A stretch of DNA of 22,493 nucleotides from a virus. The position numbers were made by a program, and so were the translations under genes. The stretch covers positions 1 to 22,493 of the IMG/VR virus record IMGVR_UViG_3300018041_000076, one strand, 5' to 3'. Below, one piece after another: positions 861 to 22,493 of the stretch. The notes beneath the pieces were generated by a model. The model saw only the letters and a list, made by a program, of their open reading frames with translations. It was not told where the DNA came from and searched no databases. Position 1 is the first letter of the stretch; each line of letters opens with the position of its first letter.

Positions 861-3800
861 TTATTCTTTAATATACTCGAGTTTTGGAGCATCTACATCT
901 TTTCTTTCAGCGTGTATAACGTAATAAGCATTTATATCACCACATTCGCAATCAATGTTTATTTCGTTGGTAGATACATTAACTACATGGTGTATACATG
1001 GAATTCCTATTGGGGTTAGTTGTACGGTTATTGAACCTTCATGTACTAAATCTACCCAGTAATATGGAAGTTTTATTGTATTAGTAGTTGTTTTTCCTCT
1101 TAGGAATACACTATGTTCCGGACCTTCTAATACACCATATTGTAGCCTGTGTGGGTTACCTTTTGTGGGGTGTTCAATATCAAAAGCTTTAACATTTGCT
1201 TGGAATTGATCTAATCCTCGAATATTAATAACACCATTACCATCTAAATCTGTAGGGCTTGTTACTGAGAATGGAACACCAAATTCTGTGAAGGAATTAA
1301 TATTTGAATCCCAATATACTAATTCAGGGCTATTATTTGATTGAACATTTAAATCTATATTGTTGGTATTTGAAGTAATACCTATACCTCCTATTACGTT
1401 TACAGTTCTATCTGTAGATAAGGCACCTCCACCAGTTAAACCTGAACCTGCAGTAATTGATACATAAGTACCATTTGTACCTACATTACCAGATATACCT
1501 GAAGTACCGTCATTACCTGATGAACCTGAAGAACCTGATCCTCCAGATATTCCACCAGCACCACCTACACCAGCTGAACCTGAGCTACCTGATGATCCTG
1601 AAGTACCTGAAAGTGCTGATAGACCATTTCCTCCTGCAACACCATTGTTACCTGAAGAACCTGAACTACCACTTGTTCCTGATAATCTTGATGAACCGTT
1701 AGCTCCTTGTGCTCCTGTTGAACCATTTGAACCTGATGAACCTGAGGTACCACTTAAACGTGATGAACCTGCTCCTCCTTGATTACCTGTAGAACCATTT
1801 GAACCAGATGAACCTGAAGTTCCTGATAAAGCACTTGCACATGATAAACCATCAGCACCAGTTAAACCTGATGTACCTGATGTACCACTTGTACCTGAAG
1901 TACCTGAAAGTCTACTTGAACCAGCTCCTCCTTGGGCTCCAGTTGAACCATTTGAACCAGATGAACCTGAAGTACCTGAAAGTCTACTTGAACCAGCTCC
2001 TCCTTGATTACCTGTAGAACCTGTTGAACCAGAACTACCTGCAGTACCTGAAACGGCTGATTGACCGTTAATACCATTTATACCTGAAGTACCTCCTGAA
2101 CCACTAGATCCAGAAGTACCTGAAAGTCTACTTAAACCACTAGCTCCGGTATTACCATTTGAACCAGTTGAACCTGAACTACCTGAGGTACCACTTAAAC
2201 GTGAAGAACCAGCTCCACCTTGGTTACCTGTAGAACCTGTTGAACCTGAAGATCCACTTGTTCCTGAAGCGGCACTACCACCTGAAGCACCTTGAACACC
2301 TGTACTACCTGATGTACCTGAGGAACCACTAGTTCCTGATAATCTTGATGAACCAGCATTCCCCTGTGCCCCAGTCGAACCATTTGAACCAGATGAACCT
2401 GAAGTACCTGATAATCTAGAAGAGCCTTGTGCTCCTTGATTACCTGTTGAACCTGAAGTACCTGAACTACCTGAACTACCTGATAATCTTGATGAACCAC
2501 TAGAACCATTTGTCCCAGTAGCACCTGAGCTACCGCCTGTTCCTGAAGAACCTGATGTACCTGATGCACCTGATTGTTCATCCTGTCCTGTAGAACCTGC
2601 TGAACCAGTTGAACCTGAACTACCTGAAGTACCACTTAAACGTGAAGAACCAGCTCCACCTTGGTTACCTGTAGAACCATTAGATCCTGAAGAACCTGAA
2701 GTACCTGATAGGGCACTTGCACCCGATAAACCATCGGCACCAGTTAAACCTGATGTACCTGATGTACCTGATGTACCACTTGTTCCTGATAATCTTGATG
2801 AACCATTAGCTCCTTGTGCTCCTGTTGAACCATTTGACCCTGAGCTACCATTTGAACCACTACCACCAGAACTACCTGAAGTACCACTTGAACCTGCTGT
2901 ACCTGAAGCACCGGATTGTTCGTCTTGACCTGATGAGCCTGTAGAACCTGATGAACCTGAGCTACCTGAGCTACCTGATAATCTAGAAGAACCATTTGAT
3001 CCTTGATTACCTGTAGAACCATTTGAACCTGATGATCCGCTAGTTCCTGCTAAAGCAGATTCACCGGCTAAACCACTTATACCTGAGGTACCGGCTGTAC
3101 CTGAACTACCTGATGTGTTTGCTGTTCCTGAAGAGCCTGCAGAACCTGAAGTACCTGATGAACCACTTGTATTTGAAGCACCAACACTACCTGAACTACC
3201 TGAGCTACCTGAGGTACCTGAAGCACCACTTTGCTCGTCTTGTCCTGAAGAACCTGCTGAACCGGTTGATCCAGAAGATCCACTTGAACCTGAATCACCT
3301 GAAGAACCATTAGATCCTGTTGCTCCTGCTGTACCGCTTGATCCTGAAGAGCCTGCTGTACCTGAAGCGCCTGATTGTTCATCCTGTCCTGTAGAACCTG
3401 CTGAACCAGTACTACCGGAGCTACCACTTGATCCTGATGAACCTGAAGATGAAGATGCACCTGCTGTACCTGAACTACCACTTGAACCTGAAGTTCCTGA
3501 AGCGCCTGATTGTTCATCCTGTCCTGTAGAACCTGCTGAACCAGTTGATCCAGAAGAACCTGAGCTACCTGATGAACCACTACTACCACTTGAACCTGAG
3601 GCACCAGCTGTACCACTTGATCCTGAAGATCCTGATGTTGCAGAAGCGCCTGATTGTTCTGCTTGTCCTGATGAACCTGCTGAACCTGAAGTACCAGTTG
3701 AACCTGATGATCCACTAGTACCACTTGAACCAAATGAACCTGAAGCTCCTGCTGAACCTGAAGTACCACTTGAACCTGCTGTACCTGAAGCACCGGATTG

Positions 3801-5882
3801 TTCGTCTTGACCTGTAGAACCTGCTGAACCTGTTGATCCAGAAGAACCTGAGCTACCTGATGAACCAGAACTACCTGAGGAGCCTGAAGCACCTGCTGTA
3901 CCTGATGAACCAGAACTACCTGAAGTAGCTGATGCACCCGATTGTTCTGCTTGTCCTGATGAACCTGCAGTACCTGTTGAACCAGAAGATCCTGATGAAC
4001 CTGAGCTACCACTTGATGATGAAGCCCCGGCTGTACCTGAACTACCACTTGAACCAGAAGTACCTGATGCACCGGATTGTTCATCCTGTCCTGTAGAACC
4101 TGCTGAACCAGTTGATCCAGAAGAACCACTTGATCCTGAACTACCTGATGAACCACTTGAACCAGAAGCTCCAGCTGTACCTGATGAACCAGATGATCCT
4201 GATGTTGCAGAAGCGCCTGATTGTTCTGCCTGCCCCGAAGAACCTGCTGTACCAGTTGAACCCGAAGATCCTGAACTACCACTTGAACCACTTGAACTAG
4301 AAGCTCCAGCTGTACCTGATGAACCAGAAGAACCAGAAGTACCTGAAGCACCACTTTGCTCGTCTTGCCCTGTAGAACCTGCTGAACCTGTTGAACCACT
4401 TGAACCTGAGGAACCTGAAGAACCTGAGGAGCCGCTTGAACCTGAAGCACCAGCTGAACCTGAGCTACCTGAGCTACCTGAAGTAGCTGAAGCGCCTGAT
4501 TGTTCGGCTTGTCCTGAAGAACCTGCAGTACCAGTTGAACCTGAACTACCACTAGATCCTGATGAACCACTTGATGATGAAGCACCGGCTGAACCTGAAG
4601 TACCTGAGCTACCTGAGGTACCAGAAGCACCACTTTGCTCGTCTTGTCCTGATGAACCTGCTGAACCCGTAGAACCTGAACTACCAGATGAACCGGATGA
4701 ACCTGAACTACCACTTGATGCTGAAGCACCGGCTGAACCTGAAGTACCTGAGCTACCTGATGTTGATGAAGCGCCTGATTGGGCATCTTGACCAGTTGAA
4801 CCTTGACTACCAGATGAACCTGATGAGCCTGAACTACCTGAAGAACCATTTGAACCTGATCCTCCTGATGAACCTGAAGTACCTGCACTACCTGAAGTAG
4901 CAGAGGCTCCTGATTGTCCATCTTGTCCTGAAGAACCTGTTGAACCTGTTGATCCCGAAGAACCACTTGATCCTGAGCTACCTGATGAACCATGAGCTCC
5001 AGTAGCACCATTGCTACCTGTTGAACCTGAAGAACCTGATGAGCCAGATGAACCGCTTGAACCTGATGAACCTGAAGTTCCTGAAGAACCTGAAGTGCTA
5101 CTTTCTCCAGAGGTACCTGAAGTACCTGCGGTACCAGCACCTGATGAAGTACCAGATGAACCTGCAGTACCCGCTGTACCTGAGGTACCTGATGTACCAC
5201 TTGTTCCTACAGTACCTGAACTACCAGAGCTACCTGAGCTACCAGAGCTACCAGAACTGCCTGAAATTCCGTTACTACCAACGGTACCCGCAGATCCTGA
5301 TGAACCCGAAGTACCCGATGTACCAGCATATCCTGAGGCTCCTGGGATTGTTCTATATTCTACAATTTTTGAAGTTGGGTTATAAGTAACAACTTGAAAA
5401 ATATTATTATTTTGTGTTAAGGAATCTATCGTAACAGGATCGGTTCCTTTAATATTAAGATGTCCATCTAAATCTAACCTATTAGTATGATAGTTAAATG
5501 TAAGATTTGATGAACCTTTAATTTCGGGGTTGGGACCAGAACCCGAAGCATATAATACTTGAGTATCCTGGGCATGGTTATCTTTAATAGAATCAACTGA
5601 AATTTCAACTGCACCTCCCGGAACAGATGATACATTAATTCCACTACCTGTAAATTTTATGCTTTGAGCGTTCTTAATAAAAGAACCATCTTTGTAAATG
5701 CCAATACCACTAACCCCTGGCAATCCTGATAGGTCTACACTATGGGATATGCTACTACTAGGGAAGTAGAAATTGATAACACTTCCGGCCAAAGAACTAG
5801 AGTAGTAGAGTGACTGAAAATTGCCATCTACTTCCTGAAAAGTTAATTCCGAGCCTTTATTTTGTCTTAGGAGTATCCCCAT
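861..5882 (-). CDS. Giant collagen-like tail fibre protein, 1673 residues
   Basis: Three parts are visible. Residues 1 to about 180 form a head with ELTFQEVDGNFQSLYY near the start, a motif common at the N-terminus of marine phage fibre proteins. Residues about 180-1472 are roughly 430 Gly-X-Y triplets, nearly all GSS, GTS, GSA, GST or GSN, without the proline expected of animal collagen. The end (about 1473-1673) starts with GSGLTGGGALSTDRTVNV, a frequent phage fibre motif, and then has HPTKGNPHRLQYGVLEGPEH and a following RGKT, a C-terminal module I recognise from fibre-like proteins of large phages and viruses. It probably forms a long trimeric fibre on the virion. It follows the gp15-like gene by 29 nt and carries the ATATTTATAA motif 6 nt before its ATG. 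Repeats make its length prone to assembly error. Confidence 0.88.
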   Translation of the reverse strand: MGILLRQNKGSELTFQEVDGNFQSLYYSSSLAGSVINFYFPSSSISHSVDLSGLPGVSGIGIYKDGSFIKNAQSIKFTGSGINVSSVPGGAVEISVDSIKDNHAQDTQVLYASGSGPNPEIKGSSNLTFNYHTNRLDLDGHLNIKGTDPVTIDSLTQNNNIFQVVTYNPTSKIVEYRTIPGASGYAGTSGTSGSSGSAGTVGSNGISGSSGSSGSSGSSGSSGTVGTSGTSGTSGTAGTAGSSGTSSGAGTAGTSGTSGESSTSGSSGTSGSSGSSGSSGSSGSSGSTGSNGATGAHGSSGSSGSSGSSGSTGSTGSSGQDGQSGASATSGSAGTSGSSGGSGSNGSSGSSGSSGSSGSQGSTGQDAQSGASSTSGSSGTSGSAGASASSGSSGSSGSSGSSGSTGSAGSSGQDEQSGASGTSGSSGTSGSAGASSSSGSSGSSGSSGSTGTAGSSGQAEQSGASATSGSSGSSGSAGASGSSGSSGSSGSSGSSGSTGSAGSTGQDEQSGASGTSGSSGSSGTAGASSSSGSSGSSGSSGSTGTAGSSGQAEQSGASATSGSSGSSGTAGASGSSGSSGSSGSSGSSGSTGSAGSTGQDEQSGASGTSGSSGSSGTAGASSSSGSSGSSGSSGSTGTAGSSGQAEQSGASATSGSSGSSGTAGASGSSGSSGSSGSSGSSGSTGSAGSTGQDEQSGASGTAGSSGTSGSAGASGSFGSSGTSGSSGSTGTSGSAGSSGQAEQSGASATSGSSGSSGTAGASGSSGSSGSSGSSGSSGSTGSAGSTGQDEQSGASGTSGSSGSSGTAGASSSSGSSGSSGSSGSTGSAGSTGQDEQSGASGTAGSSGSSGTAGATGSNGSSGDSGSSGSSGSTGSAGSSGQDEQSGASGTSGSSGSSGSVGASNTSGSSGTSGSAGSSGTANTSGSSGTAGTSGISGLAGESALAGTSGSSGSNGSTGNQGSNGSSRLSGSSGSSGSSGSTGSSGQDEQSGASGTAGSSGTSGSSGGSGSNGSSGSNGSTGAQGANGSSRLSGTSGTSGTSGTSGLTGADGLSGASALSGTSGSSGSNGSTGNQGGAGSSRLSGTSGSSGSTGSAGSTGQDEQSGASGTSGSSGTGGSSGATGTNGSSGSSRLSGSSGSSGTSGSTGNQGAQGSSRLSGTSGSSGSNGSTGAQGNAGSSRLSGTSGSSGTSGSTGVQGASGGSAASGTSGSSGSTGSTGNQGGAGSSRLSGTSGSSGSTGSNGNTGASGLSRLSGTSGSSGSGGTSGINGINGQSAVSGTAGSSGSTGSTGNQGGAGSSRLSGTSGSSGSNGSTGAQGGAGSSRLSGTSGTSGTSGTSGLTGADGLSCASALSGTSGSSGSNGSTGNQGGAGSSRLSGTSGSSGSNGSTGAQGANGSSRLSGTSGSSGSSGNNGVAGGNGLSALSGTSGSSGSSGSAGVGGAGGISGGSGSSGSSGNDGTSGISGNVGTNGTYVSITAGSGLTGGGALSTDRTVNVIGGIGITSNTNNIDLNVQSNNSPELVYWDSNINSFTEFGVPFSVTSPTDLDGNGVINIRGLDQFQANVKAFDIEHPTKGNPHRLQYGVLEGPEHSVFLRGKTTTNTIKLPYYWVDLVHEGSITVQLTPIGIPCIHHVVNVSTNEINIDCECGDINAYYVIHAERKDVDAPKLEYIKE
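1467..5345 (-). repeat. Gly-X-Y coding repeat array with a 279-bp higher-order unit
   Basis: The central part of the fibre gene is a 9-bp-scale repeat of Gly-Ser/Thr-Ser type triplets. On top of it lies a longer period: the block encoding GQDEQSGAS recurs with its marker at 3799, 4078, 4357 and 4636, exactly 279 bp (93 codons) apart, with a GQAEQSGAS block between each pair. The nearer end (about 1600-2800) is built instead from shorter units around GSSRLSGTSGSSG. Copies differ at many synonymous positions, so they are not simple recent duplications. The repeat also opens long spurious frames on both strands. Confidence 0.9.
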
Positions 5883-5888
5883 TTTTTA

Positions 5889-5899
5889 TTATAAATATT
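5889..5899 (-). promoter_or_regulatory. Motif A copy before the collagen-like fibre gene
   Basis: The sense strand reads AATATTTATAA, 6 nt before the ATG at 5882. It is one of six copies in gene gaps. On the plus strand it contains TATAAATA. A promoter role is inferred; the distance would give a very short or absent leader. Confidence 0.5.
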
Positions 5900-5911
5900 A
5901 ATGGGTTTATA

Positions 5912-6829
5912 TTATTCTTCAAAAGAAGTTGAATCCGCTGAAGTCTCTATAGTTATTCCGTCTTGGGGGGTATTATTGGCCTCTTCTAAATTTGATACTA
6001 CTTCCATATTGAATATAATTTGTGTTTTATTATTAAATTTCTTTATGGCTGTTAGTTCTTTTTGTATAGTACTTGGAACTATATATCCATAAAGCTTTAA
6101 CTGAAATGTTGCTTTTACTGTTCTTTCTCCTCCGCTAGCTAATTCTACAGGAGTTGCAAAACTATCTATAGTAGCTTTAAATTTAAAGCGTTCGGGATTA
6201 CCCCAATAACTATTAGAAGAATAATTAATAGCTTCAATTAATTTATTTAATTGTTCTACATAATAAGTTGATATAATAAAGTCATATGTAATGTTTACAT
6301 AATCAGGCATTATTACAGCATATTGCTGTTCTTGAGGAGTTCTGTTATTTAATATATCAAAGTTATTATAAGAATCCTTATTGCTATATCTTTTTGTAAA
6401 AATCTGAACGTTATTAGGGTTATTAGCATCTAATTTTCTAGATAACCCACGATTACGTTCGATAGTATTACGTTTAAAAGTGATAAGAGGCATCATAATT
6501 TTACCTTTCTTATCTCTATAGTACCCGTCTTTTTGAATCTGTTTCCATCTTTCAGGAGAACCATAAATAATAGGTACTTTTTGAACTACCCCATTTTGCT
6601 GGACTGTAGGTTTGATAACATTTTCCATGTAATAGAAAATAGCTTCATCAATCTCCTTAAACCCTAAAGCAAAGGGTTTTGTAGTATCATCTCTAAATGA
6701 TACTTGTTCACCTCTATTAAAAGTAGAACTAGCATTAGGATTACCTCGAGTTGAATCGAAGGCATCCTGTTGAGAAATGCTAATTTCCCTTTGTGTTTTA
6801 GGGGTTGGTATTTTTCCTTTATCAGCCAT
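5912..6829 (-). CDS. 15: gp15-like tail completion / sheath-stabiliser protein
   Basis: The product has 305 residues, near the 272 of T4 gp15. Visible landmarks are VPIIYGSPERW (85-95) followed by IMMPLITFKR (111-120), which match the pattern 'VPvyYgs..r... / mPrmafyi' of T4-type gp15, then a beta-rich C-terminal half with TVKATFQLKLYGYIVP. In T4 gp15 caps the tail and joins it to the neck. The start ATG overlaps the stop of the gp14-like gene by one base (TAATG), so the two are co-translated. Its place directly after the gp13-like and gp14-like genes agrees with cyanophage-type gene order and supports the call. The identity comes from pattern and context only, so another tail terminator family remains possible. 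Confidence 0.75.
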   Translation of the reverse strand: MADKGKIPTPKTQREISISQQDAFDSTRGNPNASSTFNRGEQVSFRDDTTKPFALGFKEIDEAIFYYMENVIKPTVQQNGVVQKVPIIYGSPERWKQIQKDGYYRDKKGKIMMPLITFKRNTIERNRGLSRKLDANNPNNVQIFTKRYSNKDSYNNFDILNNRTPQEQQYAVIMPDYVNITYDFIISTYYVEQLNKLIEAINYSSNSYWGNPERFKFKATIDSFATPVELASGGERTVKATFQLKLYGYIVPSTIQKELTAIKKFNNKTQIIFNMEVVSNLEEANNTPQDGITIETSADSTSFEE

Positions 6830-7392
6830 TAAATAAATCTTTCTTGTGTAATGCCTACTTTATCGGCAGGTACATAATGTGTTTCACAAATGATAGAAAT
6901 AGATGAACCAAATTCATCCAAATCGGGGTTCCAGTTGCCTGGTTGGTTAGGGTAATCTGGGTTTTTACCTGCAAAGTACTGGTTAGAAATAATATTATCT
7001 ACCTCATAGTACCCCTCGTTGTATAAAATTATATCCCCAACTTCAGGAACAAGATTAGCTCCATAGTTGTGGTCAGCAGGAGCGAAATTTTGGTTAAAAT
7101 CTTCACCAGCTGTTAATAAATCATCTCTTAGGAATTTAAAAGTAGCACCCCAATTAAAATCAGTACCCATATCCGTTTCAGGATATTCCTGGTCTCGTCT
7201 TTCTACTAAACAGTTTAATAGAACCGGACCCATATAATATTTTTCTTCGGCAGCTTCTCCGTAAAGATTGACTTTAGTTTCTTCTATTTTAAATTTATAG
7301 AAAGAACATTGTTGAGTAATAACATTACCCATCAATTCTCTACTAATGTGTCTAAATAAACTTATATCTCTTGAACTACCGTATAAAGCCAT
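6829..7392 (-). CDS. 14: gp14-like neck protein
   Basis: The 187-residue product begins MALYGSSRDISLFRHISREL and has the two hallmarks I expect of T4-type gp14: a middle region with a tryptophan-phenylalanine rich stretch (WGATFKFLRDDLL, 81-93), and PEVGDIILYNEGYYEVDNI at 116-134, which parallels 'keGDLIYFPmdnsLFEInwVe' in T4 gp14. Length is shorter than T4 gp14 (256). In T4, gp13 and gp14 form the neck that seals the filled head and receives the tail. The gene starts 1 nt after the stop of the gp13-like gene and its stop overlaps the gp15-like start, so the three form one tight operon. Confidence 0.78.
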   Translation of the reverse strand: MALYGSSRDISLFRHISRELMGNVITQQCSFYKFKIEETKVNLYGEAAEEKYYMGPVLLNCLVERRDQEYPETDMGTDFNWGATFKFLRDDLLTAGEDFNQNFAPADHNYGANLVPEVGDIILYNEGYYEVDNIISNQYFAGKNPDYPNQPGNWNPDLDEFGSSISIICETHYVPADKVGITQERFI

Positions 7393-7393
7393 C

Positions 7394-8569
7394 TTATGCT
7401 ATGTAAATTGGGAATGGGACTTGGTTTAACTCTTTCTGTCTATAATCACTTTCTAATGATCTTCTTTCTAGTAATTTTTCTCTAGAGGTTTCATCTAAGT
7501 ACGCTCTTAACCTTTCAATTAAAGTCGTTTTAGCATCGTTACCCCTTGAAACTAGATCAGAACCATTAAGTGTTACTTCAGAACCCGGGATTGGTACTGA
7601 GCTATATTTACCTCTTATAAGTCCTAACATTTCCATAGAAATAGCTAAAGCGTATTCAAACACCCAACTTCTACCAACAGAGTTAATTTGAGAATATACA
7701 GGGTTGGTATAAGGAACATTTGAAACATTTGAAATTGACCCAGAATCTCCAGCAATACTATTTGCTAATCTTTCAGATTTAAGTAAAAATTGGAAATATA
7801 AGGTATTTATTTCTCCTGTTGGAATTGGGAATAATCTTAATTTATTATTTTGAACTTCAAATGAATAGTTTGATCTTCTAATTTGATCATTAAATTCTAT
7901 CTGTTGAATTACTTGCAAATCATAATTGATAGGCATTAATACAAAGTTAATAGCTGGTGAGTAATTACCCCAACCAAAACTATCCATTAAATTCATAACA
8001 CCAGTACCACTACCCACATATGGATCAAAGAATTTTGCGATTGCAGGTGGTGCTTCATAAAATACTCTTTTAATTTCAAGATCTTTATCATCATACCCTT
8101 GAGCAATTGCCCAAGCATTTAAATCATAATCCTGAACTGAGGCAGTTAAAGCAATTGAACCTGTATGCCAATCTACATTCCCACCAGTTCCTGCTTCAGT
8201 ACCATATTGTTCTGAGAGTTTAATAATTACTCCCATATTAGGGTTGACTTGAGAGAATGCTAATGATGGGTTACCGTTTACAGATGGAACACTTGTTGAT
8301 ATGTCTGTTCCTTCAAGTGATAGATAATCTTGTCTTACTTTATAGGCATATACCTCGTTGCCATAGATGGTGATTGCTTGTTCAAGCGCGGTATAGAACG
8401 AACCAGACTGCAATTCTACATCAGCAATCGGGTAACCTAATCTACGAGCTGCAAAATCAGCAAATCGATCTGAATCTGTTACAAATGCCGGATCGTTATC
8501 ATAAAACCCGAAAGGAGTATCACCAGCTGTGAATGTGGAAGTACCTGTCCAAATTGGAATGTTTGCCAT
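7394..8569 (-). CDS. 13: gp13-like neck protein (head completion)
   Basis: The product has 391 residues, longer than T4 gp13 (309). Residues 37-71 (FADFAARRLGYPIADVEL, then ALEQAITIYG) match the start of T4 gp13, where a D/E-rich helix leads to RRLGAPiinVELT and a helix ending in YGEYH. Towards the C-terminus WVFEYALAISMEMLG, RGKYSSVPIPGSEVTLNG and a final acidic-basic helix match the gp13 region with KDYATALAKE and a PGG(V)t.dG turn. It would form part of the neck ring on the portal. It is the first gene of an operon: a terminator (8598-8624) and a motif A copy (8585-8595) lie just upstream, and the gp14-like gene follows after 1 nt. Confidence 0.82.
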   Translation of the reverse strand: MANIPIWTGTSTFTAGDTPFGFYDNDPAFVTDSDRFADFAARRLGYPIADVELQSGSFYTALEQAITIYGNEVYAYKVRQDYLSLEGTDISTSVPSVNGNPSLAFSQVNPNMGVIIKLSEQYGTEAGTGGNVDWHTGSIALTASVQDYDLNAWAIAQGYDDKDLEIKRVFYEAPPAIAKFFDPYVGSGTGVMNLMDSFGWGNYSPAINFVLMPINYDLQVIQQIEFNDQIRRSNYSFEVQNNKLRLFPIPTGEINTLYFQFLLKSERLANSIAGDSGSISNVSNVPYTNPVYSQINSVGRSWVFEYALAISMEMLGLIRGKYSSVPIPGSEVTLNGSDLVSRGNDAKTTLIERLRAYLDETSREKLLERRSLESDYRQKELNQVPFPIYIA

Positions 8570-16086: not shown

Positions 16087-17994
16087 TTATTGTTCCTTAA
16101 TATTTGATTCGTCTAATAATGAGCTATCATTGGCCTTTTTTTCAAAAACCATTTGCTTTTTTGCAACCGGAATAGATTTAAGCATACTTTTATGCTTGAG
16201 GAAATGCGTATTACTTTCTAAAGCTAGTGGTGAACCACCTTTAAAATCAACTTTAAGTTTATCATTACTGTTATAATCATTTTTCATACCAGCAACACCC
16301 AACCTATCTTTTCCAAAATTATCATCTTGGGTATTACGTTTAGATACTTTTTCTTTTGGACGGCCTAATTCAGCTTCGTCTTCATTATAACCATCAGGTA
16401 CGTTTGCTGGGTCTGATTCCATTCTACCTTGACCATATAGCGAAGCTAAATCATGAGGTGTACCATATGACTTACCTGATTCAATAGGATCATTACCTTC
16501 GTTTTCAATTTGAGATAAACGGAATTTACGCATCACATCTGAACGAATTAAATCTCTATATTCATCGTATTGGTCTTCACTTAAGTGGAAGATATTATCA
16601 TAGATATAATCTGATGGGAATAGGTTTGAGTTAACCATTTGTTCAGCTAAATCCATTTTCTCCTTCATCAATGCAATTCTTTCTTGATCGTAAATGATTG
16701 AAGGTGTTGTTAATGAAATTTCAAAGTTAGCTAATTGTTCATCACGGTATCCTTGAGTATATAAATGGACTATCGCGATCTTATATAACTCCGATGTTAC
16801 TATGCGTTGAATACGCTCAATTGTGCGAGCAAAACGGATATCTTGCGCTGCCAATGTAGCTTTCCCATCTGTGTTTTCATCGTAACCCATAAACGCTTTA
16901 GGCACTTTAAGGGCTGCAAATAATTTGTCTCTTAAGTATTCAACATCCTGGATACCATCCCATTGTAGACCGTTTAGGTTTTCAATTTTAGTTGATGTAT
17001 CATTACCTCTTACTGGGATGTAAAAATCCTCAAGTAAGTTTTGCATGTTATATTTTAGGTTATATTCACCTGTTTGTTGATCAACATATGGAGTACGTTT
17101 CATTTTAGAAACTGTTTTCTCCATAAATGCATCAATCTCTTGGGGAGGGATAGAACCAACATTCATGTAGTAAATACGTCTTTCAGGTGCACGTACAATC
17201 CTGTGGATTAACATTGCATCTTCCATTAACGTGTACTGCTTAAATAATTTACGAGCTGGTTCAATATAACTTCTACCATAAGGTAAGAAATTCATATCCG
17301 TTAAAAGACGGAAATGAGCCATTTCATAATTATCAAAAATGATTGAGTTTTGGTTTCCACTACCCCCAGGTACATTGTAGTAGCCATAATCTGAGGCTGC
17401 TACTCCTTCTGGGTCAAATCTATATTCTACTTTAGCAGGATTTTCTTTATCAGCACCTTCTAATCTTTCAATATGGAATGCTGTATAAGGGATAACGTTA
17501 TATACCCCAAATTTTTCTGCTACTTCTAATTTCAAAAAGAAATCACCATATTTACACATATTACGAATCCAAGGCCAAAGGTTGAATTCAATATTTAATA
17601 CGTCGTAAAATAAGTTATAAAGGATTTTTTGAATATCTTCATCCGAAGAACGAATAGATAATACTTCACCCTGATCATTTTTTAGAGTACTTTCATCAGC
17701 AATTATATCAAGAGCAGATGCGATGATAGCATCTGTATCCATCGCATCATAATCTGAGTATAATGAGGGTCTTAAGTATTGGTAATTAAAATTAGTTTGT
17801 TGACCATATAATGAGGTAGATGAATTAGTATAAATTCTATTAAATCTATCTACTAAAGCATTAGTTTGCAAGTCTCCGGATTGTTGGATGCTATTAACAT
17901 CAAACACTTTAAGTTGGTTGCCACCAGTATTACGGAGAACTACATCCGTAGAAAATAATCGTTGTAATCTGGGGAATAATCCTTTATCTGCCAT
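16087..17994 (-). CDS. 20: Portal vertex protein, gp20-like
   Basis: The 635-residue product is somewhat longer than T4 gp20 (524). Family landmarks are DAIIASALDIIADEST near residue 90, NLWPWIRNMCKYGDFFLKLE at about 138-157, RAPERRIYYMNVGSIPPQEI in the middle, and LKVPKAFMGYDENTDGKATL with the following AAQDIRFARTIERIQ at about 365-400. Twelve copies form the ring at the packaging vertex that binds the terminase, later the neck. The C-terminal 100 residues (from about 520) are polar and low in hydrophobics and look disordered. It follows the terminase gene by 23 nt, with a motif A copy directly abutting the terminase stop codon. In T4, genes 18 and 19 lie between these two; they are missing here. 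Confidence 0.95.
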   Translation of the reverse strand: MADKGLFPRLQRLFSTDVVLRNTGGNQLKVFDVNSIQQSGDLQTNALVDRFNRIYTNSSTSLYGQQTNFNYQYLRPSLYSDYDAMDTDAIIASALDIIADESTLKNDQGEVLSIRSSDEDIQKILYNLFYDVLNIEFNLWPWIRNMCKYGDFFLKLEVAEKFGVYNVIPYTAFHIERLEGADKENPAKVEYRFDPEGVAASDYGYYNVPGGSGNQNSIIFDNYEMAHFRLLTDMNFLPYGRSYIEPARKLFKQYTLMEDAMLIHRIVRAPERRIYYMNVGSIPPQEIDAFMEKTVSKMKRTPYVDQQTGEYNLKYNMQNLLEDFYIPVRGNDTSTKIENLNGLQWDGIQDVEYLRDKLFAALKVPKAFMGYDENTDGKATLAAQDIRFARTIERIQRIVTSELYKIAIVHLYTQGYRDEQLANFEISLTTPSIIYDQERIALMKEKMDLAEQMVNSNLFPSDYIYDNIFHLSEDQYDEYRDLIRSDVMRKFRLSQIENEGNDPIESGKSYGTPHDLASLYGQGRMESDPANVPDGYNEDEAELGRPKEKVSKRNTQDDNFGKDRLGVAGMKNDYNSNDKLKVDFKGGSPLALESNTHFLKHKSMLKSIPVAKKQMVFEKKANDSSLLDESNIKEQ

Positions 17995-18017: not shown

Positions 18018-19592
18018 TTATAGTAGCCACTTTATGCTCTCATCTTTACCCCCTATATCCATATTGTATGGGTTTTGGGCGCTATTTGCTGAGTATACAC
18101 CACTGTAACTAGTTTTGTTTGTTTTAACTGCCCCTAAAGCTGCGCGAGCGGAGTCTAAACTCTGCTGTTGAAACTTGAGCGACGTATCTCTCAGGAACAT
18201 ACCAATTCCAAATGACATAACCAAGTCATCATTGTAGCCACTTTGAGCTTCTGGTCTACCATTCCTCCAAATAAATACTTTCATTTCTTCTAATAGTCGT
18301 TTGGAACGAATAGTTACTGATTGGTCACCAACAAATTCTCTAAATTTATTAATACATAGAGGTCTTGTTCTCATTGACATTGTAAACCCAGGAACCATTT
18401 CACTATTGCCTTCGAATACTCTAAGATAAGATTCAGCAGTTAATTGATCGGATTTTGGTGATTGGTATAAGTTTCTATATCCTCTCTCTTGGATAGCATC
18501 TAATGTTGCCCATCCAATGTTGGCGTTTTCTACTACCAACATAGCGTTATTATATTCAGTAGCTAGACCTGTAAGGAAATATCCAAATTCTTTAGGTGGA
18601 AGTTGACCTTTATATTCTGCTACTTGAGTATTTGTTGCAATATCCATTATATGGCATGCAGAAAAATCTTTACCATCACCTCGGGCAACGTCAGCAATAA
18701 CCATATATTCTCTAGAGTAATCAGCGGCTTCCCAAATCCATAGGTTTTGATCTACACCTCTACGTTCTAGTGGGTCTTGGATTGTTGTTTCCTTAATAAA
18801 CTCTATCCATTCAGAATGGAATACAGTATCCCCTGAGGTACTAAAATCACAGTCACATTCCTGAGCAGCCATTCTAGGATCACCTAGTAATTCATCTTGA
18901 CGTTTTCTCCAAGCTTCATCTCGTTCGGGGTGAACCCACCACGGTAATTTAATTGGAAGGAAATCATTTTCATTATTTTCTGCTGAAACCCATGTTTTAT
19001 GAAACCAGTTACCTGTACCATAAGGGGTAGATAATACAATAGCACCACCACCAGTAGCTAGGGTTTGTTGAGCTGAGGCCCATATTTCACCAATTTGGTC
19101 AATAAATGCTGCCTCATCTACTAATAGCAAAGAAACGGCTTCCGATCTACCAGCATCACTACTTGCTGAGGTTGCTTTAATTTGGGAACCATTATTTAGT
19201 CTAAGAGATAATTTATTATTCTCATCTGCTGGTATTTTAAGCCACGAAGGTAAGTTATCATACATAAACTTAACCTTTGTAACCATGTTACGAGCGGTTT
19301 CCTGCTTTGTCGCAATACATAGAATATTTTTATCCTTATGAAATAACATCATCCATAAAGAATACCCAGCAGATAAGGTTGATATACCCAACTGTCGGGA
19401 TTTTAGAATAATTGAATATGGGTTATCTCGTAAAAGGTGTAATGTTTTTTCTTGAAATGGGTATAAGTTAAATATAACACGGCCACGTTGTGGGTGCTGA
19501 ATGTGGCAGTATTTTTTCATAAAATGAGCTGGATCTTGAGCGCATTTTAAATATTCCTGCCTAATTACTGATTTTAAATCTTGTTGACTCAT
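18018..19592 (-). CDS. 17: Large terminase subunit, gp17-like
   Basis: The 524-residue product has the packaging ATPase and the headful nuclease. Walker A is SRQLGIST (65-72), Walker B with catalytic Glu is LLLVDEAAF (155-163), and the coupling motif is STP (188-190). In the nuclease domain Asp301 in IADVARGDGKD, the Glu of VVENANIG and the Asp pair of GYNDDLVMSF are in the places of the three acidic metal ligands of T4 gp17. The protein would cut concatemers and pump DNA through the portal. It is shorter than T4 gp17 (610). The start overlaps the stop of the upstream membrane-protein gene (ATGA). No small terminase subunit (gp16) is recognisable next to it. Confidence 0.96.
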   Translation of the reverse strand: MSQQDLKSVIRQEYLKCAQDPAHFMKKYCHIQHPQRGRVIFNLYPFQEKTLHLLRDNPYSIILKSRQLGISTLSAGYSLWMMLFHKDKNILCIATKQETARNMVTKVKFMYDNLPSWLKIPADENNKLSLRLNNGSQIKATSASSDAGRSEAVSLLLVDEAAFIDQIGEIWASAQQTLATGGGAIVLSTPYGTGNWFHKTWVSAENNENDFLPIKLPWWVHPERDEAWRKRQDELLGDPRMAAQECDCDFSTSGDTVFHSEWIEFIKETTIQDPLERRGVDQNLWIWEAADYSREYMVIADVARGDGKDFSACHIMDIATNTQVAEYKGQLPPKEFGYFLTGLATEYNNAMLVVENANIGWATLDAIQERGYRNLYQSPKSDQLTAESYLRVFEGNSEMVPGFTMSMRTRPLCINKFREFVGDQSVTIRSKRLLEEMKVFIWRNGRPEAQSGYNDDLVMSFGIGMFLRDTSLKFQQQSLDSARAALGAVKTNKTSYSGVYSANSAQNPYNMDIGGKDESIKWLL

Positions 19593-20543: not shown

Positions 20544-21077
20544 TTAAAGTTCTATAACATTCAACATTTGATGAATTCGTTCTTCAGTGGTACCTGAGAT
20601 GGTGGTAAAGTTTTTAATTCTGTGATTATATTTACTGATTAAACGACTAATCATTAAGTCAATAGTTCTTCTATATTGAGCATCTGTTTCACGAACGCCA
20701 TTATCTTCAATTTCTACACCTTCAGGAGATACATAAAAGATATAGTCATACTCTCTAATTAGATGACCAGCTAATGTTTCAAAATCTTCTTTATCATAAA
20801 TGTCCATTGAAGTAGAACAATTAGCAAATGCCATAACATCAATTACAGTACGATCTGTAATAATGTTTTCTTGCATCAATTCGCTTGACCGTTCTGCTAA
20901 AAATACACATTGACCCTTTAATGTTGAATCAGTATTCAATGGAATACCTTGAGCCATTAGTTCTTTAGAACGCTCTGTTCTAAAATTGTAATCTTTAAAA
21001 TAATCTAGCTCCTGAAGAGCCTTAACAAGTGTGGTTTTTCCTACACTCATTGTTCCGCATAATCCTATTTTTGCCAT
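20544..21077 (-). CDS. P-loop kinase-like protein (AAA_28 / NadR-like type)
   Basis: The 177-residue product has Walker A GTMSVGKT (8-15) right after a first beta-strand (AKIGLC), then RTERSKELMAQGIPLN, a strand with ITDRTVIDVMAFANC that supplies the Asp-Arg pair typical of nucleoside and nucleotide kinases, and DYIFYVSPEGVEIEDNGVRE before an arginine-rich lid-like helix (DAQYRRTIDLMISRLI). This layout matches the AAA_28 family, which includes the ribosylnicotinamide kinase domain of NadR and many phage proteins. The substrate could be a nucleoside, nucleotide or nicotinamide riboside and cannot be decided from the sequence. Its start overlaps the cupin gene by 13 nt, so the two are probably made together. 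Confidence 0.85.
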   Translation of the reverse strand: MAKIGLCGTMSVGKTTLVKALQELDYFKDYNFRTERSKELMAQGIPLNTDSTLKGQCVFLAERSSELMQENIITDRTVIDVMAFANCSTSMDIYDKEDFETLAGHLIREYDYIFYVSPEGVEIEDNGVRETDAQYRRTIDLMISRLISKYNHRIKNFTTISGTTEERIHQMLNVIEL

Positions 21078-21448
21078 TCTCTATAAATTCTATAACTGTC
21101 TGAATCAAAATGTTCTGTACTAACTTCAAATATAACCCCATCAGTTAGTGCTTTTAATTGGTGGGGTTGACCTGGGTATTGTCTCACGCTATCACCTTCT
21201 CGTAATTGTTGTTCATGAACTGTACCTGTTTCAGTATCTACCCAACGATACAAAAATTCTCCCTCATTGACAAACCAAGTTTCATCTTTTTCTAAATGAT
21301 AGTGCATACTAAAGTTACAACCTTTTTTAAACACTAATAACTTACCACAATAGAGTTCATTATTTTCAAAAATAATCTCATGCCCCCAACCTTTGGGAAC
21401 ATTACACTCCTTACACTCTGTAGCATTAAAAACTATTGGTTTTTCCAT
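21065..21448 (-). CDS. Small cupin, sugar-phosphate isomerase-like
   Basis: The 127-residue product is a single-domain cupin. The first cupin motif reads NFSMHYHLEKDETWFVNEGE (45-64) with His49, His51 and Glu55/Glu56 as likely metal ligands; the second is REGDSVRQYPGQPHQLKA with His96. KGWGHEIIFENNELYCGKLL (19-38) is the usual lead-in of cupins related to type II mannose-6-phosphate isomerase. It may bind a sugar or sugar nucleotide, but similar single cupins also act as oxygenases or binding proteins, so the activity is open. It starts 1 nt after the stop of the 92-residue gene and overlaps the kinase-like gene by 13 nt. Confidence 0.88.
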   Translation of the reverse strand: MEKPIVFNATECKECNVPKGWGHEIIFENNELYCGKLLVFKKGCNFSMHYHLEKDETWFVNEGEFLYRWVDTETGTVHEQQLREGDSVRQYPGQPHQLKALTDGVIFEVSTEHFDSDSYRIYREWQK

Positions 21449-21449
21449 A

Positions 21450-21728
21450 TTAGTTTCTATAGTCTGAGAGTTGGTTTTTCATGGATTGGTTTTTATAATA
21501 AGGCAACCCTTCACGTTCTTGCATAACTTCCATATAACTATCATAATCGTATAAATTTCCATTTAAGTAGTATGATTTTGTATGAGGAGAATCTCTTTCA
21601 AAGGGTTCTATTGCTGGACCATCCCATCTATGAAATCTCCAATTTTCTTCATCTTGAAATTTGATTAAATGGAGTTTTGCACCTTGATTTTTAATGGTCT
21701 TGTACTCGTATAATTTTTCTCTAGCCAT
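21450..21728 (-). CDS. Small phage protein with a WDGPA...YYLNG motif
   Basis: The 92-residue product contains WRFHRWDGPAIEPFERDSPH (31-50) and KSYYLNGNLYDYDSYMEVMQ. The 'H R . D G P A . . . . . . . W/Y y . N G' pattern is the unit of a widespread repeat in phage and large-virus proteins, normally present several times; here there is one copy with a short helical tail. Its function is not known in any case I can name. It lies 9 nt after the FAD-dehydrogenase gene and 1 nt before the cupin gene, so it belongs to the same operon. Confidence 0.75.
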   Translation of the reverse strand: MAREKLYEYKTIKNQGAKLHLIKFQDEENWRFHRWDGPAIEPFERDSPHTKSYYLNGNLYDYDSYMEVMQEREGLPYYKNQSMKNQLSDYRN

Positions 21729-21737
21729 AACTTTATA

Positions 21738-22493
21738 TTAATAATTTTCGAAGAATTCTGGGTATTCTTCATTGTGTTTTTCTAAAATATAATCTGTAAC
21801 ATAAATTCCTTGTGCTCCTGATACTGTAATACCTCTTGCACTTAATGCATCACCTACAAAGTGAACATTATCAAAATCAATCAATGATAAATCATCATAA
21901 TTAACTAATGGTTCAGGTGATAGATACTTAACTTCAGGAATGTAAACACCCCAATCGTCACCCAATGTAGGAAATACTTTCTTCATATCCTCGATAAAAT
22001 CATCAATGTATGAATAGTAACCTTGGAATGCTTCTCTTACTTCATCCATTTCACTAATGGTAACAGCACTTACATTTTCACCTTCAGAAGTTGTAGATGG
22101 AGTACGTGTAGGGCTATAGTATAAACCTGTACCATCTTTATTTACCTTAGAAACTAAATCTCTAGACCATTTGAATGGTTCTTCAATGCCCTGAACTTCC
22201 ATTAGGATACCAAAATTGGTCATGTCGTTTCTGTATTTTTCGTCTTTTTTGGCATGCCCGTTATATGAATGGTCTCCATACGTTTCCTCAACGGCAACAT
22301 AAGCTGCGTTGTTGTTTGTACAGAAAGAGCGTAGCGATACTCCCTCGTCATCAAATTTTCTATATAGTTTGAAGTCATAACTAATATCAATTAGTTTCTG
22401 GAAGTGTTTTTGTGGTGCCTCAAATCGCACCCCAATTTGTACTGGTTTTGGTTCAGTAGGTAATTCGTAATCATCTGCTAATTGTTTACCAAA
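21738..22493 (-). CDS. FAD-dependent dehydrogenase, COG2509-like, C-terminal part
   Basis: The frame stays open from the stop at 21738-21740 to the window edge, giving 251 visible codons; the N-terminus with the dinucleotide-binding fold lies outside. A GTG at 22430 is an internal valine, not the start, because 21 sense codons precede it. Visible family landmarks: PVQIGVRFEAP, LRSFCTNNNAAYVA, YNGHAKK, TNFGILMEV, and near the end NVHFVGDALSARGITVSGAQ with GIYVTDYIL, the C-terminal FAD-contact helix. These follow in the same order as in bacterial FAD-dependent dehydrogenases of COG2509 ('IGVR.E', 'R.FCTNP.G', 'NGHS', 'TNFALLV', 'GDGAG.SRGI..A...G'). The substrate of the family is not established. 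One change from the usual GDGAG is GDALS. It heads the cupin-kinase operon as far as visible. Confidence 0.85.
   Translation of the reverse strand, partial: FGKQLADDYELPTEPKPVQIGVRFEAPQKHFQKLIDISYDFKLYRKFDDEGVSLRSFCTNNNAAYVAVEETYGDHSYNGHAKKDEKYRNDMTNFGILMEVQGIEEPFKWSRDLVSKVNKDGTGLYYSPTRTPSTTSEGENVSAVTISEMDEVREAFQGYYSYIDDFIEDMKKVFPTLGDDWGVYIPEVKYLSPEPLVNYDDLSLIDFDNVHFVGDALSARGITVSGAQGIYVTDYILEKHNEEYPEFFENY

Follow-up and report, generated by a model that had tools for sequence, protein, structure and literature searches.

The stretch of DNA analysed here (the window) is a whole IMG/VR virus record of 22493 bases. Its last 756 bases hold a frame of 251 residues on the minus strand, which runs from the last base, 22493, down to a stop ending at 21738. 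Since this frame is open at its 5′ end, the gene is cut by the contig end and its C-terminal part is kept. It is followed on the same strand by a gene block and by two landmark genes of T4 type:

21738..22493, minus strand: predicted COG2509-type FAD-dependent oxidoreductase, C-terminal 251 residues, 5′-truncated by the contig end (PHROG match, relatives, alignment, profiles, AF2 model)
21807..21860, minus strand: predicted C-terminal FAD-site motif FVGDALSARGITVSGAQG, residues 212-229 of the 251, aligned with the GEGAGYAGGI-type loops of bacteria
21450..21728, minus strand: MORN-like small protein of 92 amino acids, named by eye and without a Pfam match
21065..21448, minus strand: single-domain cupin (Cupin_2; PF07883, E 2.3e-8), a variable insert
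20544..21077, minus strand: P-loop kinase, AAA_28 (PF13521, E 2.6e-12), a constant partner
18018..19592, minus strand: terminase large subunit of T4 type (PF03237), a landmark
16087..17994, minus strand: portal protein of T4 gp20 type (Pfam), a landmark, 60% identical to that of Flavobacterium phage immuto

Measured from the preceding stop, the start codons in the run of dehydrogenase, MORN-like protein, cupin and kinase lie at 9, 1 and -13 bases, the last value being the overlap of the kinase gene with the cupin stop. With this spacing the four genes look translationally coupled.

The truncated frame is a real gene under purifying selection, because it has at least 592 relatives in IMG/VR (the best 80 of these were retained, with identities down to 76%) and because dN is well below dS (0.05-0.10 against 0.58-0.95 in comparisons with five relatives). 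A sixth locus compared was identical to the window frame. Full-length intact relatives comprise about 430-470 amino acids, and their N-terminus reads GAGVAGVNAATKL or differs little from it. One of them, the L002 protein (P0001), is 93% identical to the window protein. The dinucleotide-binding N-terminus that the original prediction expected upstream was found in these relatives: P0001 carries a single Rossmann fold of FAD type (GxGxxG), recognised by Pyr_redox_2 (Pfam, E 1.8e-8) and by the motif GAGVAG, and the window itself ends before it. In a wider scan of 79 loci, 63 encoded proteins with at least 68% identity to P0001, here called window-type, and 16 had at most 28%, with none between; intermediate relatives do exist, at 44% in UniProt and at 65% in L375.

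The original prediction had named the COG2509 type and proposed a profile search, which was negative in Pfam and NCBIfam for the 251-residue frame and positive with full-length profiles. For this piece the best Pfam hit was not significant (E 0.36), NCBIfam gave no match, and the PHROG search returned one family, phrog_12409 'dehydrogenase' (E 2.4e-8). No COG2509 call was made for the piece or for P0001 by Pfam, NCBIfam or single-sequence PDB searches. The Pfam model PF21688 stayed below cut-off on both and on four records of the window type; it does match the gut-type viral copies. The assignment was obtained from full-length profiles only, not from single sequences. The comparison of 40 viral with 16 bacterial COG2509 (PF21688) proteins gave a probability of 100 and an E-value of 1.1e-39 over 408 columns, extending through the PF21688-type C-terminal cap domain. 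Window-type proteins alone aligned with the bacterial PF21688 profile over 250 columns (E 6.5e-16), and the 251-residue piece alone gave a weak hhalign result (probability 22, E 9e-4). When the 40-protein viral profile was searched against the PDB, 3nlc came first with an E-value of 2.8e-41, followed by a second match at 9.2e-11; with the window-type profile alone 3nlc was again first (E 4.2e-5, second match 0.0093).

Structural modelling points to the same protein. A first AF2 model was poor (pLDDT 63.5) because its input alignment was too uniform, and even so its best structural match was 3nlc. A second model from a diverse alignment reached a pLDDT of 87.8 and a pTM of 0.86. With it, Foldseek placed 3nlc first (1.2e-20, TMq 0.69; next match 2.8e-11), as did VIA-align (Z 31.1 over 388 residues, rmsd 2.9; next match Z 19.5). 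The next best structures, HI0933 and aminoacetone oxidase flavoproteins (2gqf, 4cnj; Z about 19), share the common flavin-binding core, but their alignment is limited to about 230 residues. The solved COG2509 protein 3nlc is VP0956 of Vibrio parahaemolyticus, which would have the same fold and has the same order of landmarks over its whole length; it is about 20% identical to the window-type proteins, and the bacterial copies have an N-terminal extension of about 80 residues that the window type lacks. From profiles and model together, the predicted COG2509 type was upheld: membership is as firm as computation allows, and flavin binding is predicted. A phage protein of this kind had already been entered under the family name. 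The closest match in a viral structure library was UniProt A0A6J5M0P4 of an uncultured Caudovirales phage, entered as 'COG2509 Uncharacterized FAD-dependent dehydrogenases', yet it is less than half identical (44%; TMq 0.87). The third best match there was A0A3G4ZPX6 of the giant virus Terrestrivirus, named FAD-dependent dehydrogenase. PADLOC gave weak partial matches only, the best of them (3.9e-4) to the Rossmann start, and these were taken as chance.

When 35 proteins from viruses and bacteria were aligned, the result agreed with the earlier reading that the 251 residues carry the family landmarks in order, including FVGDALSARGI. The full order is GAGVAG, GFLGAGGWSDGK, HVGTD, GVRFEAPQ, FCTNN, NGH, PEVK and GDALSARGI, of which GAGVAG, GFLGAGGWSDGK and HVGTD precede the part kept in the window and are visible solely in full-length relatives. 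Two motifs that we defined from the bacterial alignment and not from a published definition, GxGGAGxxSDGK-type and H-x-G-T/S, fall in the same alignment columns as those of the bacterial, gut-type and Campylobacter phage copies. Among the 40 viral proteins, S59-D60-K62, H128, G130, R222, E224, K241, C257, N277-G278-H279 and Y383-E386-K388 (L002 numbering) are invariant. The window type differs from the bacterial COG2509 proteins in two of its motifs, since FCTNN stands in place of FCMCPGG, keeping the first Cys only of that pair, and GDALSARGI in place of GEGAGYAGGI. Furthermore, the Rossmann fold starts at about residue 3, and the N-terminal extension of the long cellular form is absent.

The loop GDALS had been suggested to mark a phage branch. 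This holds for the window-type clade, in which GDALSARGI occurs in 96 of 99 distinct proteins (from 113 rows; the other three have GDTLS, GDSLS or an end before the motif), but not for phages at large: Campylobacter phages carry GDSAITRGI and gut-type viral copies a GDGSG-type loop. A phylogeny with bacterial and phage relatives was likewise proposed at the outset. In an unrooted tree of 35 proteins picked for spread, the window-type and Campylobacter phage groups fall on one side of a 100/99 branch, but the branches are very long (4 to 9) and this grouping may partly be long-branch attraction. The Campylobacter Fletchervirus dehydrogenase (NCTC12673 gp008) is a full-length homologue that shares GDxxxxRGI with the window type, to which it is nevertheless only 23-25% identical. 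Past the conserved fold, from about 21785 to 21738 of the window, lies a C-terminal tail, which in many copies is EYPEFFENY-like or HGDIINW-like and in others almost lacking; such short tails might serve as docking peptides.

The gene order was compared at 37 loci, namely the window and 36 extracted loci that are 8 kb or longer, in all of which the dehydrogenase is present by construction. It is followed by the MORN-like protein (33/37), a variable slot, the kinase (37/37), small ORFs, the terminase (36/37) and the portal protein (34/37). The original prediction of an auxiliary cluster with a cupin and a kinase was therefore right for the kinase, but the cupin is variable and the MORN-like protein is the other constant member. 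The slot holds the cupin family of the window in 12 loci, a CTP_transf_like protein in 7 (with Pfam support in one locus of the 7) and, by eye, an FkbM-like protein in 4 and a second cupin family in 2; elsewhere other ORFs or none were found. At L051 (9512-9931) and six other loci the CTP_transf_like protein adjoins the kinase where the cupin otherwise stands, a pair that recalls a split NadR. As to NadR-type NAD salvage, a PDB search with the kinase profile ranked deoxyguanosine and thymidylate kinases ahead of NMN adenylyltransferase.

In two loci (L292 and L293) the dehydrogenase and the MORN-like protein form one open frame. Together with the fixed place beside terminase and portal genes, these fusions would suit an inactive flavoenzyme relic that is kept to bind a partner, e.g. 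the MORN-like protein, close to the virion or the packaging apparatus, and the loss of the second Cys of FCMCPGG points the same way. However, this Cys is missing in most gut-type viral copies as well, the FAD-site landmarks are retained over a deep split, and the first Cys, SDxK, HxG and NGH do not vary in the 40 diverse viral proteins. We hold such a relic to be highly improbable.

Some copies of the gene are split. In L059 and L062 (6351-8729) it consists of two open frames, between which lie a GNAT ORF and a nuclease-like ORF that resembles GIY-YIG by eye and has no Pfam match. An independent case is L056 (2430-4511), again with two frames and an unrelated ORF between them. Both splits fall in the same variable loop, at about residues 165-183. 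A search of Rfam for known introns in L062 and L056, where the gene is split, returned nothing except an implausible microRNA (E 0.24). Because the halves retain the conserved residues, they may act as two chains.

The presence of the gene was counted from its neighbours. Anchored on the terminase, a choice that does not presuppose the dehydrogenase, 43 of 80 loci with about 2.3 kb or more upstream could be used; 39 of these carry the dehydrogenase and 42 the kinase, and all 12 loci with 7 kb upstream carry both. In three cases (L331, L345, L351) the contig end is too near, and L388 is a true absence of dehydrogenase, MORN-like protein and kinase together. This natural empty locus (2425-3558) has a small cupin-like ORF and a scaffold-like ORF, both named by eye, directly before the terminase. 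Anchored on the kinase, the dehydrogenase was present in all 44 loci that have 1.5 kb or more upstream (from 46 typed rows among 80 loci, the other two having less than 1.5 kb). The dehydrogenase is also the most conserved gene of the block and changes more slowly than the terminase, in loci that were chosen by their dehydrogenase, so its own value is biased upward: relative to the window, identities have medians of 80.1% (dehydrogenase part), 73.9% (terminase), 69.8% (portal), 67.9% (kinase), 61.5% (cupin) and 52.4% (MORN-like protein). Slow change and near-universal presence are unexpected for an optional gene and make the label 'auxiliary' doubtful; on the other side stand one clear absence (L388) among the close lineage members and a nearest isolate that lacks the gene.

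By its portal protein, this nearest isolate is the Flavobacterium phage immuto mentioned above. A window-type block was also found in a contig binned with a Flavobacteriaceae MAG, and for these two reasons a host in Bacteroidota is likely. Upstream of its terminase immuto has another gene set, and it is absent from the phage records that match P0001, so it is without the dehydrogenase. In the phage-record collection 49 of 50,697 records match P0001, all with less than 60% identity; the gene marks a large uncultured phage group that is hardly present there.

An ordinary auxiliary metabolic gene taken from the host, redirecting a host redox step, for instance one of nucleoside or sugar metabolism in which kinase and cupin also take part, is a possible though not a probable explanation. 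COG2509 proteins occur widely in the phylum searched (102 of 198 genomes have PF21688), the variable slot next door holds small-molecule proteins (Cupin_2, CTP_transf_like), and the nearest PDB relatives of the kinase act on deoxyguanosine and thymidylate. However, no close cellular homologue or donor was found in 395 genomes of the phylum of the Flavobacteriaceae MAG, where the single match of the window-type profile was a phage-like MAG contig. A pattern scan over all genome contigs yielded two phage-like MAG contigs only, and a further search of 3 genomes gave no donor either. The bacterial copies are moreover of the long form, with the N-terminal extension and a different Cys motif, and near-universal presence with conservation above the terminase would be unusual for such a gene. 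The bacterial neighbourhoods support no particular substrate, since no neighbour gene was common to more than 2 of 14 regions.

In L222, a piece of contig G004, positions 2394-8096 encode QueC, a PTPS/QueD-type protein and a radical SAM protein, with DpdA-like and thymidylate synthase-like proteins recognised by eye. The phage group may accordingly modify its DNA with 7-deazaguanine, and the dehydrogenase could then tailor a DNA base or nucleotide within this apparent modification. In line with this, QueC was found in every one of the 4 window-type records that reach 99 kb, and in these alone among the 12 records searched, and immuto encodes an AAA_28-type kinase in its region of deazaguanine genes. 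A published set of T4-like viral genomes attributed to marine Bacteroidetes includes one with que genes (PMC7198788); the word 'dehydrogenase' is absent from the main text of that paper. On the other hand, QueC is missing in NCTC12673 and in three gut-type records, all with COG2509 (four more records without it are window-type fragments, 31-66 kb long), the dehydrogenase lies outside the que region of G004, and immuto has the modification genes without the dehydrogenase. A role in this modification is, in our estimate, quite unlikely.

Taken together, we consider it likely that the gene of this T4-like phage lineage, which probably infects Bacteroidota, encodes a COG2509 flavoenzyme of the short form, with a predicted late, lineage-core function. 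This late role is favoured over host metabolism with moderate confidence, since the block leads on into the genes for packaging and head and is almost never missing. FAD would have the N-terminal Rossmann fold on one side and the GDALSARGI loop on the other, and a substrate under the PF21688-type cap would exchange hydride with the flavin, assisted by invariant residues near the site, including C257, H279 and K62. The MORN-like protein may be in a complex with the dehydrogenase, and the kinase might phosphorylate the same or a linked small molecule. The main objection to the late-core role comes from the Campylobacter phages, in which the COG2509 copy has a different neighbourhood, near endolysin, dUTPase and clamp loader genes, so that the tie to packaging genes is not general. 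A bolder and unlikely version would be that the dehydrogenase joins the MORN-like protein and the P-loop kinase in a redox-kinase module of the phage core that has not been described before and acts late on virion DNA, its nucleotides or the packaging machine instead of host central metabolism; the COG2509 proteins of Campylobacter phages would then perform a remote variant of that function.

COG2509 is a widespread flavoenzyme family, and we know of no report on its function. The literature under the names COG2509 and VP0956 yielded nothing on function, and none was found on a phage 'uncharacterized FAD-dependent dehydrogenase' or on the dehydrogenase of Campylobacter phage NCTC12673. The new and testable part is the conserved block with its fusion and its core-like constraint: a phage lineage with one copy, constraint above that of the terminase, a three-gene block, fusions, splits and an empty locus make up a small testable system for the substrate.

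Two further observations concern other genes of these phages. At L062 (11411-14173), and in the same way at L059, the terminase has 920 amino acids in place of the usual 525 or so, with weak sub-cut-off matches to Hint_2 and LAGLIDADG inside, and the insert is probably an intein in the packaging ATPase. In the window itself, positions 861-5882 encode a protein of 1673 amino acids that consists mostly of Gly-Ser-Ser/Thr repeats (collagen-like GSSGSSG) and is presumably a fibre protein.
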